Source: Verrucomicrobiota bacterium (GTDB lineage: Bacteria; Verrucomicrobiota; Kiritimatiellia; UBA8416). Taken from it: a DNA stretch of 35,195 bases. The stretch is taken from assembly GCA_018645275.1 (NCBI GenBank), contig JABGOW010000511.1, positions 5,175-40,369 on the forward strand, in the 5' to 3' direction. Positions within the stretch are counted from its first letter, which is position 1. Each line of letters opens with the position of its first letter. Positions 5,112 to 10,167 of the stretch are shown in pieces. Made by a program: the position numbers and the translations under genes. Below the pieces are notes generated by a model. That model made no database searches. It saw only the letters and a program-made list of their open reading frames with translations, and had not been told where the DNA came from.

Positions 5112-8100
5112 TTACTGCTGAATGATAACTTCAGTTGTTTCCAGCGCCAAAACGGAGAACGTCGTACGCGCCGCTTCACCCTTCAGTGAGGCGGCGTAGG
5201 TTCCGGGCGCAAGGCCTTTGATTGTGGTTGAACCCGCGCTGTTCAGTGCCGTGTTGCAGGCTGCAGACCAGTATCCCACCATTGCCCACGCTTCATTATG
5301 GCAGCGCTCAACACGTGCGCCCTCTTTGGTGTGCACTTCAATATACTTCCCAGTGACCGGGTTTCCAGAGGCGTCTTTCACGCTGATTATAACTTCGCCA
5401 CCCGGTTCCAATTTGGGGCTCCACGTTGTGTCTTCGGTCAAGGTGATGCGCTGTGTTTTGATGTCATAGCCATCCTTGAATGCAAGGAGGAGGCAGGCCC
5501 CCTCCGGGAGTGGAGATTGGATTGTGTAGTCACCAGCAGCATCGGCGATCCCAAACCCCATTGTTTCCTCGGTGTCTGGGGAGAGAACGACAATCGCAGC
5601 CTGTGGAAGCGTATTACCTTCCGGATTTGTGATCTGGCCTCTGAGGGTGAAGCCATCGGACAGGGTGATGTCATGTGTCACATTACGGTCTGCAACCTCA
5701 ATAAATGCAACACTCGGACTGAATTCTGCTGTCTGTGTGCGCAATTTATAGCTTCCCGGTTGTAAGCATTTCAAGGCGTATTTCCCCTCATCATCCGTGA
5801 CTGTGTTCCGACCTTGTGTGTATTCCTGCCATCCCTTCGCCGTCCTTGATGTGAGGTGCATTCGAATTCCCTCCTTCGGGGTTCCGCCTGCTGTGACAAC
5901 CCCCGACAGGGTCTTTCCATCAATGGCAAGCGTGAGGGCTTGGTCACCTTCCTCAACGGTGAACGTTCCCGTCAGAGCTGGAGCCATCCACCCGGATTGC
6001 GGTTCTTCTGGCTTCGTGGGGTCAGTGATTCTGTAGGTGTATTCGCCAGGTTCTAACCCTGTGATCGAAAACGCCCCCTTCTCGTCAATGTCCGCTTGCT
6101 TGACGCCCCCCATCATACGCATGGCCATGGCCATCTGGTTGCTGCGGTCTTCTGTTTTGGGGGCGGCTTGAAAGACGATCTTCCCACCTGGCTGAGGTGT
6201 GCCATTTACGGTGATGATTCCTGCTCGTGAGGTTTCATTGCTGCCTCCGGATTTCTGGCGGAGCGAGAGTGTCGTTGTCTCTCCCTCCTTCACAATGGCC
6301 TGGGTGGCAACCATCTTTGCCATGATGCTGGTGTAGTCTGTGCTATCGGCGTCATCATTCATAGGCGTTGCATATACCTGGTATGTTCCAGCTGGCACGC
6401 CTGCGAATAAAAATGAGCCATCCTCATCCACTTGGGTGTTCTGCATGCCTCGCGGATTAGATGTGTTTTGGAGCATGACCGATGCGCTCGACACGGGATC
6501 GCCGTCCGCCGTTATGAAGACGCCTTCTATTCTACCTGTTGTTGGCAATTCGATCTTCACTCCGTCCAGTTCATCTGCTTCAACGAGCACACGCTTTTGC
6601 GTCAGAACCTGACGTTGACCATCAGTGTTAGAGCAGGCCATGAGTTCTACGACCCCTTTAGCAACACCCTCTATCTTAAACGCGCCAGTTGAGTCCGTTG
6701 TTTCTACTGTATCGCGGTTGCCTTGCATCATGCCCATGCCGCCAAACCAACCCCCGGTTCCCGGGCGTACCTCTATGCCTGCGACCGGAGCGCCGCTGGC
6801 TTGGTCAACAACCGTTCCGCGGATCGTTGCGCCCTCTTTGAGCGTCATTTCAATGACCGCGTTATCAAAACTGGCGGGGGTGGATAGATCAACCGTGCTG
6901 TTGCCTGGTAGATAAGGAGACAGGGATGCCGTTATGCGATAGGGCGACCCTTCTCTGACTGTGACGCTGAACATGCCATTGCTGTCTGTCTCAATGTCGC
7001 TTTGCCTAGCTCCGGAAGACCCGAAACGCGCGCTGCCCTCTCTCTGTCTTGCCGTGCCAACGCCAACCCCCGAGAGCGGATTGCCTTCTGCATCAACGAC
7101 GCGTCCCGTTACTGAGTGTTGTGCACCCAGCGAGACGAAGATGTCGTCCGTACCGGCCTCGATGTCAGAAAGCGTTGAAACGGTATCGCGACCGTCTTGG
7201 ATATTGATGGTATACCGCCCTTCGCTCAAGCCCCCAATCTCAAAGGATCCATCGGCGTCTACCTCTTCGCGCTTCCATACGCGTTCTGTTCCTGATGCGT
7301 TCTTTGGGCCGTTTGCTGTGACGCGAATGCCATCTGATAGCTCACCCTTTGATTCCTGCACCATGCCCGAAATCGAAAGCCCGGCGGCCAACTCGATATT
7401 GGATAACGTGTTGCTGCCGGATGTGACGGTGACCTCTTGCTTGAGCTCGCAATAGTCATCATGCTTGATTTCCAGAACGTAATCCCCTGCGGCCAGTCCG
7501 TTTATGGAAAAATGCCCGTCATCGTCACTCTCTCCGCGTTCTCTATGTCGACGTGATGTGCTCGTTCTCCCCTGGCTGTTTTTCGATTTTACTTCTTCGA
7601 TTACGGTGAGCTTTGCGCCAGCAATGGCCGCTCCATTAGTGCCAACTATGGCGCCTGTGATTGAGCACGCATCCTCAAGAACGAGGTGAATCTCCTGCTC
7701 TGCCTCGTTTGTGATTTCCAGCTCTAATGATGTATCGACGTAGTCCTTATGCTTGCCCTCGATTTTCGCGCTTACTGGGGTAATGCCCGTGATAACGAAT
7801 GCACCCGTCTCGTCCGTCGTTGCTTTTCCCTGTTGGTGCGATGACGAATATGAACCGCCTGTGGGCGTTTTGGTTTTTGCAACACCGTAAAGAGAGACTG
7901 ACGCCTTTGCTATGGGGTCGCCATTGGAATCGGACACGCTGCCATTAACGGTGACGGTTTTCTTGACCGGTAGGGATAGCTCTACTATCTCGCCGGCTGT
8001 GAGCTGAACGCCGTTTGTGTTGAACCACACGCCATCCCCGTGAACATGTAGGGAATAGGTTCCTGAGCGCAATCCCGTGCAGGTTACGCTTTCGTCGGCT

Positions 8101-9074
8101 AATGTCTTTTTAAACGTGTGTTGATTTTTCCAGCCGTCTTTGCCGCGAAGCTGGACCGTGACGCTAGAGGGCATTTCTGAAGCCTGCTCCTGAGTAAACG
8201 CAAGGCGGAGCGTGGCTGCGGGTTCGACCTCAAAGTCGCGAGTGACGGTTATCCCGCTCTTGAACTCCACCCGGGTTTTTGCCCCGGCAGCCAGCGCATA
8301 ACTGTCGGAGTCGATGGACACCGTCGTGCTGCGTTTTTCAAGACCGGAAAGGGAGTAGTGGCCTTGTGCATCTGTCGTTGCCTGCCGGGAACGGCTTGTT
8401 TTTACAATAATGCCCGGTGCCGGCTTTTTATCCGTTGTGTGTATGATGCCTTCAATGGTGCATCCCAGTTCGGCAAGCAGTTCGAGATAGGCGAAGTCAT
8501 CTTGGATCTCAACATCCTGGCGCTTTGGCGCGTAGCGCTTATCATCAATGAAGCAGCGGTAGGTGCCCGGGCTGAGGGATGCAAAGGCAAAAGCGCCCTC
8601 TGCATCGGTTTTTGTGCGGGCCGCTTCCGAATAGTGCTTGCAGCTGGTTTTGCGAAGACGCATCTCGGCAACTACACTCACCCCGACAAGCGGCTTATTA
8701 GCCTCGCGCACGATTCCGGTGCATTCGCCAAGCAGCGAGAGCTTGAGCGTCTTCAGGTCGGTATCTTCATCAATGTGTGTGAATCCATCCCTGAGTCGGC
8801 CGTCAGCGTCCCGGACCAGGATGGTGTAATCCTTCTTGCCACTGGGCAGCGACAGTGAAAAGTCCCCATCATCGCCTGTTTGGGTTGTGGCTTCGAAAGG
8901 CGGTGTTGTCCCCGTTTTGTCGGCATGCAGATGCGTGGCGGAAATGACAAGTCCCACAAGTGGTTTCTCTGTCTCTGCATCGACGGTCCTTCCCGTAATC
9001 GTGATGTCAGCCCGTGCGGATAGCGTGTGCAGCGCGATGAGGGTTGCGAGAAGGTGTAGAATACGAGTGCGCAT
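5112..9074 (-). CDS. Giant exported protein with about 14 carboxypeptidase-regulatory-like repeats
   Basis: A 1320-residue exported protein. AAGGAG sits 5 nt before the ATG at 9074, which opens a clear signal peptide (MRTRILHLLATLIALHTLSARA), so the track start at 9101 is too early. After the signal almost the whole chain is a tandem series of about 14 beta-sandwich units. Each has a G.V.D..G.P..G..V strand pattern, then T.A.G.F.I.GL..G.Y, as in carboxypeptidase-regulatory-like and Cna-B-like domains. No catalytic domain, TM helix or LPXTG-like anchor is seen, so the protein is probably secreted or periplasmic and structural or adhesive. The repeats are divergent, which points to old duplication. 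One unit (about residues 510-530 of the chain) carries a basic, Ser/Arg-rich insertion. Confidence 0.85.
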   Translation of the reverse strand: MRTRILHLLATLIALHTLSARADITITGRTVDAETEKPLVGLVISATHLHADKTGTTPPFEATTQTGDDGDFSLSLPSGKKDYTILVRDADGRLRDGFTHIDEDTDLKTLKLSLLGECTGIVREANKPLVGVSVVAEMRLRKTSCKHYSEAARTKTDAEGAFAFASLSPGTYRCFIDDKRYAPKRQDVEIQDDFAYLELLAELGCTIEGIIHTTDKKPAPGIIVKTSRSRQATTDAQGHYSLSGLEKRSTTVSIDSDSYALAAGAKTRVEFKSGITVTRDFEVEPAATLRLAFTQEQASEMPSSVTVQLRGKDGWKNQHTFKKTLADESVTCTGLRSGTYSLHVHGDGVWFNTNGVQLTAGEIVELSLPVKKTVTVNGSVSDSNGDPIAKASVSLYGVAKTKTPTGGSYSSSHQQGKATTDETGAFVITGITPVSAKIEGKHKDYVDTSLELEITNEAEQEIHLVLEDACSITGAIVGTNGAAIAGAKLTVIEEVKSKNSQGRTSTSRRHRERGESDDDGHFSINGLAAGDYVLEIKHDDYCELKQEVTVTSGSNTLSNIELAAGLSISGMVQESKGELSDGIRVTANGPKNASGTERVWKREEVDADGSFEIGGLSEGRYTINIQDGRDTVSTLSDIEAGTDDIFVSLGAQHSVTGRVVDAEGNPLSGVGVGTARQREGSARFGSSGARQSDIETDSNGMFSVTVREGSPYRITASLSPYLPGNSTVDLSTPASFDNAVIEMTLKEGATIRGTVVDQASGAPVAGIEVRPGTGGWFGGMGMMQGNRDTVETTDSTGAFKIEGVAKGVVELMACSNTDGQRQVLTQKRVLVEADELDGVKIELPTTGRIEGVFITADGDPVSSASVMLQNTSNPRGMQNTQVDEDGSFLFAGVPAGTYQVYATPMNDDADSTDYTSIMAKMVATQAIVKEGETTTLSLRQKSGGSNETSRAGIITVNGTPQPGGKIVFQAAPKTEDRSNQMAMAMRMMGGVKQADIDEKGAFSITGLEPGEYTYRITDPTKPEEPQSGWMAPALTGTFTVEEGDQALTLAIDGKTLSGVVTAGGTPKEGIRMHLTSRTAKGWQEYTQGRNTVTDDEGKYALKCLQPGSYKLRTQTAEFSPSVAFIEVADRNVTHDITLSDGFTLRGQITNPEGNTLPQAAIVVLSPDTEETMGFGIADAAGDYTIQSPLPEGACLLLAFKDGYDIKTQRITLTEDTTWSPKLEPGGEVIISVKDASGNPVTGKYIEVHTKEGARVERCHNEAWAMVGYWSAACNTALNSAGSTTIKGLAPGTYAASLKGEAARTTFSVLALETTEVIIQQ

Positions 9075-9361
9075 GGGGTCTCCTTGTTCGTTAGACCCCA
9101 TCCGAAAAGGGTCTTTGCCCTGAAAGGGCTTGATATACTAGCCCAGGGCAACGCCCTGGGAATCGAAGAAAAAGATGAACCAGCCCTGAAAGGGCGAGAT
9201 ACATCAAAGCTTCTGATGGTACGACCATATATCCCGCCCTTTCAGGGCTAAATTTGTTTCGTGGTCACACCCAGGGCGTTGCCCTGGGCTAGAATATCTC
9301 GCCCCGCTGGGGCTTTTCGGACAACGTCTAGTTACAGATGATGTGCCGATTGGTGTGCGGC
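9075..9361. repeat. Cluster of palindromic intergenic repeats (family A)
   Basis: No gene is seen here. The stretch holds GCCCTGAAAGGGC at 9117-9129 and 9183-9195, the same unit inverted at 9236-9248, CCCAGGGC-AAC-GCCCTGGG at 9142-9160 and its mirror CCCAGGGC-GTT-GCCCTGGG at 9270-9288. A related GCCCCGCTGGGGC lies at 9300-9312. Units are joined by GATATA or GAATATCTC linkers and can fold into nested hairpins on either strand. The 21-mer around the second unit recurs exactly at 25671-25691. These resemble REP/BIME-type elements mobilised in trans by RAYT transposases, none of which is encoded in the window. Confidence 0.75.
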
Positions 9362-9949
9362 TCAGCGATAGCGGTAGACCGCTATCGTCGCAGTCCACCG
9401 TTTACTTTCGGCGTCGTAAATGCTGTCGGAAATCTGTCCCACGGTTGCGCCCTTGTCGAGTGGAAGGGGGATGAGCTGGCGCTTGCCGAATGTCAGAATG
9501 TGTGGCGCTTCTCCCGTTGTCTCCTCTATGGCGTTTTCAAGCTCTGGATCACGAGCGACGCAGACGAGAAACACAGAGGAACGGCCCTGCCCGTGGCGCA
9601 CCATATATGCACTCACATCAACGGCACTCAGAAGTTCTGCGAGCAGTTCGGCGCGTGACTGCTGATCGCCTTTTTTCGCTGCCAGCGCACGGCTGGGAGC
9701 AATTACGCAACGACCGCCTCAACCATAGGTCGTTTTGGTTTGTTTGATCTCGTCCTGCACAAACTGGTGCATAGAGAGAATGCGGTGGACCTGAGATTCG
9801 GTCTGCTGTGAGAGCTCCTGCGCTCTTGCAGCAATAGCGTCGGGATCATTCTTCTGAGTTGCAGCTGTGACGACCCATCCCAACGAAAGGGCGCTTGCGA
9901 GTGCGACTACCACCGTCTGTACTCTCGACATCATGTCTGCATCTTGCAC
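9362..9949 (-). pseudogene. Exported hypothetical protein interrupted by an in-frame TGA
   Basis: Two ORF-track entries (9719-9949 and 9362-9616) are parts of one continuous frame of 195 codons broken only by TGA at 9721-9719 (codon 77). The first part begins at GTG 9949 or ATG 9934 and has a signal-anchor-like segment (VVVALASALSLGWVVTA) followed by a helical, Gln-rich region. The second part reads from GGRCVIAPSR with no further stop to VYRYR. I do not recognise a family. A single nonsense change (a broken gene), a sequencing error or TGA recoding would all fit. No strong ribosome binding site is visible. Confidence 0.5.
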
Positions 9950-10092: not shown

Positions 10093-10167
10093 TGTCATCC
10101 TGAGCTTGCCGAAGGATCTCGTGCTTATCGGTGGCCCTTGAGATCCTTCGACAAGCTCAGGATGACA
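10093..10167. repeat. Hairpin repeat family B, copy 1
   Basis: Left arm TGTCATCCTGAGCTTGCC continues to GAAGGATCTC; right arm GAGATCCTTCGACAAGC continues to TCAGGATGACA. The arms of about 28 bp pair with one mismatch around a 19-nt spacer (GTGCTTATCGGTGGCCCTT). A second copy with the same arms but a different spacer lies at 21361-21434. This is a short non-coding inverted-repeat element, like palindromic elements scattered in many genomes. Confidence 0.85.

Follow-up and report, generated by a model that had tools for sequence, protein, structure and literature searches.

The window (the whole 35,195-nt stretch of DNA analyzed here) carries on its minus strand a reading frame of 195 codons, from position 9949 to 9362, that is interrupted by a single internal stop, a TGA. 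This is codon 77 when counted from the GTG at 9949, and residue 72 when counted from the likely start, an ATG at 9934 (or the one at 9931). Behind it, 118 codons remain open up to the terminal stop, also a TGA (9362 to 9364). All these coordinates and counts agree with those of a preliminary description of the DNA. The gene, called here the Sec gene for the selenocysteine (Sec) that it is proposed to encode, is followed downstream by a much longer gene (the partner), with a palindrome-rich insert between them (Table 1).

Table 1. Features of the putative selenoprotein locus, in window coordinates
Feature	Position	Strand	Description
Putative Sec gene	9362..9934	minus	190 aa, Sec = residue 72; 9 homologous genes share the TGA column
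Putative Sec-encoding UGA (Sec72, motif YGUGGR)	9719..9721	minus	TGA at alignment column 80, 9/9 genes
Hydrophobic signal-peptide-like N-terminal segment	9860..9934	minus	Hydrophobic run in 9/9 members; low-confidence helix in the model
SECIS-like stem-loop	9676..9702	minus	7-bp stem, 9692-9698 with 9680-9686; loop CGUGC, 9687-9691
D90-Q91	9662..9667	minus	Gln where transglutaminase-like relatives have the catalytic Cys (GVC), from a profile alignment to GVCRDKA relatives
Palindrome-rich insert		9092..9330		none	Terminal inverted arms 9092-9109 / 9313-9330; between Sec gene and partner
Partner gene	5112..9074	minus	1320-1329 aa; alternative start 9101; next downstream gene in 7/8 genomes
Partner CxHY motif (C145, H147, Y148 from ATG 9074)	8631..8642	minus	Sole invariant Cys column, 7/7 partners

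A search of 144 relatives, using the protein with an X at the stop position as the query, retrieved eight genes in seven genomes (the window included), each with one in-frame stop that was always a TGA. A class-wide profile search (346 genomes) added one further full-length member, also with a single TGA, while a sample of 388 genomes of the phylum provided no additional one. In total, the family comprises nine genes in eight genomes, all of them separately assembled MAGs, and the other eight genes are 30 to 39% identical to that of the window. An alignment-based scan of the contigs of named genomes found the same genes in MAGs from several projects, labeled Kiritimatiellae, Lentisphaerae, PVC group, and Victivallis, whereas a single-sequence scan of the same set gave no relative.

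When the homologues were compared across codon 77, as the preliminary description had proposed, all had TGA and none a sense codon, and no member contained any other in-frame TGA. The same description had put forward, as a refutation, homologues that end at this stop, and none of them did; all continue as a conserved protein. In fact, the flanks of the TGA are the best-conserved part of the family (D-E-I-R-Q...Y/W-G-U-G-G-R...P-S-R-A-L...G-D-Q-Q-A-R-A-E-L-L). On both sides of it, third codon positions change most and second positions least, and dN is well below dS, indicating that the region past the TGA is translated in frame and under selection. Chance does not account for this pattern, as eight further genes, 30 to 39% identical, retain the open frame, the TGA at its column, and the downstream hairpin. 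A recent nonsense mutation, a pseudogene, or a sequencing error, which is what a lone stop in an open frame looks like in one genome and what the preliminary description preferred, can be discarded for practical purposes, given a TGA common to 9/9 genes of such divergence in eight separately assembled MAGs and purifying selection on either side. Judging from these sequences, the gene with its internal TGA is almost certainly intact.

The window's genome, a 4.69-Mb MAG with 95% completeness, contains selC (tRNA-Sec, anticodon UCA), selA, selB, and selD together on contig C527, that is, the three genes that had been suggested for a check plus selD. At this locus (L070, G000:C527), selC lies on the strand opposite to selA-selB-selD, and SelD has extra Cys-rich N-terminal residues (CVCDPRQPCPCDLFKAKDICSCAG), like the SelD of another genome, G081. 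A Sec-containing formate dehydrogenase was looked for in the window's genome as a second Sec client and was not found. Both selA and selB were present in 8/8 of the family-bearing genomes, compared to 26/346 genomes with selA in the class; this co-occurrence of selA and the family has a hypergeometric p of 3.3e-10, computed ignoring phylogeny.

Some bacteria read TGA as tryptophan, and by that precedent the internal stop could be translated as Trp, or by general suppression as some other residue. We regard this as highly improbable, because the window gene and the members in loci L002 and L005 themselves terminate in TGA, members lack any second in-frame TGA, and selA and selB accompany the family in all eight genomes while selA is rare in the class. 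The terminal TGA of the Sec gene itself indicates that TGA is a normal stop in the window's genome. We consider with very high confidence that the internal TGA encodes selenocysteine and that the locus is a selenoprotein gene. Selenocysteine had been named in the preliminary description as a remote option; the sel genes and the homologues favor that reading, and its ranking below a nonsense change was wrong.

The hairpin described earlier (GCT-C-CCAGC-CGTGC-GCTGG-C-AGC) indeed starts 18 nt past the TGA, with one C.C mismatch. In the aligned RNA past the UGA, the family shares a 7-bp helix capped by a 5-nt loop (CGUGC, CGGGC, or CGGGU); the stem-loop lies 24 to 27 nt after the TGA, and the UGA-to-loop spacing is 27 nt. 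Standard pairing was found in 93.7% of the paired cells of the alignment, with two-sided changes in three pairs, and the covariation score was 0.385, compared to ≤0.159 for slid versions and reached by 0/500 shuffles. The published bSECIS limits (PMC13188914) are a loop of 3 to 9 nt, a G within the first two nucleotides of the loop, a distance of 16 to 37 nt from the UGA, and an MFE of ≤-7.5; the values of the stem-loop are within them, with an MFE of -14.8 kcal/mol for the region in the window. In most members, the single-sequence minimum energies were not clearly below those of shuffled sequences, and for this reason the case for the RNA rests on conservation and covariation.

Termination always competes with the decoding of UGA as Sec, which leaves room for a regulated stop (or readthrough) that yields two functional products of different length, and the short one, of 71 aa, would still be secreted. 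Nevertheless, the best-conserved block spans the UGA and the following helix, and the truncated protein would lack the fold, so we consider this alternative very unlikely.

All members of the family have a signal-peptide-like start. An AlphaFold model built from the nine-row alignment had a mean pLDDT of 86, and its best Foldseek matches among solved structures were transglutaminase-like proteins and cysteine proteases (3isr, 3kd4, CPR-C4, and LapG), with a best E value of 2e-3 at a probability of 1.00 and no match below 1e-3. Weak matches to Pfam Transglut_core (PF01841) appeared in 6/9 members (best E, 0.0016), the window protein scoring 15.3 bits, below the gathering score of 23; a sequence search of the PDB gave chance matches only. 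The model assigns the protein to the transglutaminase-like superfamily (PF01841; DUF3857-type, LapG, TgpA, 3isr, and 3kd4), with which it shares the predicted fold and distant sequence similarity along residues ca. 25 to 112. However, the Cys-His-Asp triad of the superfamily was not found: the position of the catalytic Cys is occupied by Gln91 (Ser in L032), and no His is conserved after the core helix in the nine-member alignment. The Sec sits 19 residues upstream of that position, in what is predicted to be a tight glycine-rich turn joining two short strands. We had contemplated Sec as a swap for the catalytic Cys of transglutaminases and dropped it, that column being Gln or, in L032, Ser. 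An intramolecular UxxxC pair with C76 of the window protein was also abandoned, as C76 is not conserved. There are no conserved Cys columns in the family, and in two members the Sec is the sole Cys/Sec residue.

Distant relatives without the stop are domains of ca. 1,270-residue proteins. Some keep the normal triad (GVCRDKA...FNHA...LMD) and others are degenerate (GNTTDRA), and in neither type is the Sec column a Cys, while the selenoprotein has Gln (Ser in one member) at the catalytic-Cys position. We infer that the Sec probably did not originate by the usual Cys-to-Sec exchange. Loci L033 to L054 contain such proteins, with intact (GVC...FNHA) or degenerate domains, across the class. These domains are a plausible source of the scaffold of the selenoprotein. 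No Cys form at the Sec column was detected in the 346 genomes of the class, in the 388 of the phylum, or by a pattern scan of the named-genome contigs.

The partner, a protein with CarboxypepD_reg/Ig-like repeats and a signal peptide, is encoded directly downstream on the same strand in 7/8 genomes. A profile built from the two domains at the start of the partner matched exactly those seven genomes and none of the other 339 of the 346 searched. Where complete or nearly so, the partners have 1,034 to 1,331 residues, and they are 24 to 36% identical; along with the Cys of the CxHY motif, they have an invariant upstream His (H100). The repeats and the predicted fold, which resembles pilin and adhesin Ig domains, recall the CarboxypepD_reg/SpaA-type Ig-repeat surface proteins (PF13620), but in the class searched the N-terminal domains with CxHY appear only beside the Sec gene. 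Counting against the link between both genes, one genome (G016) has two tandem TGA-bearing copies and no partner. At that locus (L072, G016:C1:64000-80000), the tandem copies precede a serS-like gene. In G081 (L071, G081:C9:84000-97600), the Sec gene, the CxHY partner, selA, selB, and selD are found on one strand within ca. 12 kb, together with genes for a secreted protein of 154 aa and a NapH/MauN-like ferredoxin membrane protein, as well as an ORF that contains CGNC, a neighborhood that suggests a redox setting.

Considering all the evidence, the explanation that we favor with good confidence is an intact selenoprotein gene, whose product would carry out selenol chemistry in the cell envelope with a co-encoded partner. 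According to established knowledge, SelB and tRNA-Sec(UCA) would bind the stem-loop and insert Sec at UGA72. The product would be an exported protein of ca. 19 kDa with a transglutaminase-like fold, devoid of the usual Cys-His-Asp site, and would display the Sec at the apex of a glycine-rich turn. In the envelope, the selenol might perform redox (or metal/thiol) chemistry together with the giant Ig-repeat partner. With no Cys conserved in the selenoprotein itself, the CxHY Cys of the partner would be the most natural residue for forming or receiving a Se-S bond. We advance this redox pairing of the two proteins tentatively. Equally tentative is the broader proposal of a Sec-only family, in which Sec would have arisen not by Cys-to-Sec replacement but on a degenerate transglutaminase-like scaffold already lacking its catalytic Cys, and which would form, with the giant Ig-repeat protein, a dedicated two-protein envelope system acting through the invariant CxHY Cys.

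Two other functions have to be weighed against redox chemistry. The Sec could act as a nucleophilic selenol in acyl transfer or proteolysis, at a relocated transglutaminase/protease site, and might, for instance, cross-link the Ig-repeat partner, in line with the transglutaminase-like/cysteine-protease fold and from the resemblance of the partner to pilin and adhesin Ig domains, a class often covalently cross-linked. We deem this unlikely given the loss of the Cys-His-Asp site (Q91, or Ser in L032, and no conserved catalytic His); besides, known selenoproteins are mostly redox proteins (PMC13188914). Somewhat less unlikely, the Sec and the His and Cys-x-His of the partner could bind a metal for sensing, sequestration, or electron transfer, with no Se-S exchange. 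H100, C145, and H147 of the partner, all invariant, look like ligands, and the G081 locus includes the NapH-like ferredoxin neighbor, although no known metal motif was matched. Redox chemistry with the partner remains, of the three functions, the one that we prefer.

The family shares with bacterial selenoproteins the in-frame UGA, a SECIS-like stem-loop just after it, and a genomic background in which all carriers have selA and selB, and differs from them in that no Cys homologue was found here and in a fold that is not thioredoxin-like. No transglutaminase-like family is listed among the 119 families and subfamilies of prokaryotic selenoproteins in Table 1 of the 2026 inventory (PMC13188914), no selenoprotein model of NCBIfam (June 2026) matched any of the nine members at E values up to 10, and we found nothing relevant in the literature on transglutaminase-like or Kiritimatiell- selenoproteins. 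In a comparison that covers the families of that table, the unlisted candidates of a groundwater MAG survey cited in the same paper falling outside it, this is almost certainly an unlisted family of bacterial selenoproteins. The closest motif is that of "Hypothetical protein DG" (NF049953, GUxG; PMC12013277), in which glycines also flank the Sec and which GUGG fits, but 0/9 members match NF049953 and DG has Cys homologues. Cys homologues now seem to exist for every known selenoprotein, and families without them may, according to its authors, be missed by the deep-Sep method (PMC12013277). Current selenoprotein finders depend on such homologues, and a family with none in the genomes searched would exemplify the kind that is overlooked, its genes being mis-annotated as broken or as two short ORFs. 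It would also place Sec on a non-thioredoxin fold and in a new position. Because the partner is defined and offers a single candidate residue for the reaction, the function is directly testable.

A scan of the whole window against Rfam gave no match. The gap between the Sec gene and the partner is longer in the window than in its relatives because of the palindrome-rich insert, which looks like a small noncoding mobile or REP-type element. Its terminal arms are TAGACCCCATCCGAAAAG and CTTTTCGGACAACGTCTA, and within them there are nested repeats, CCCTGAAAGGGC and CCCAGGGC-GCCCTGGG. The DNA upstream of the Sec gene (10093 to 10167) contains an almost perfect inverted repeat of 28 nt (TGTCATCCTGAGCTTGCCGAAGGATCTC) around a 19-nt loop, which resembles widespread intergenic hairpin repeats.
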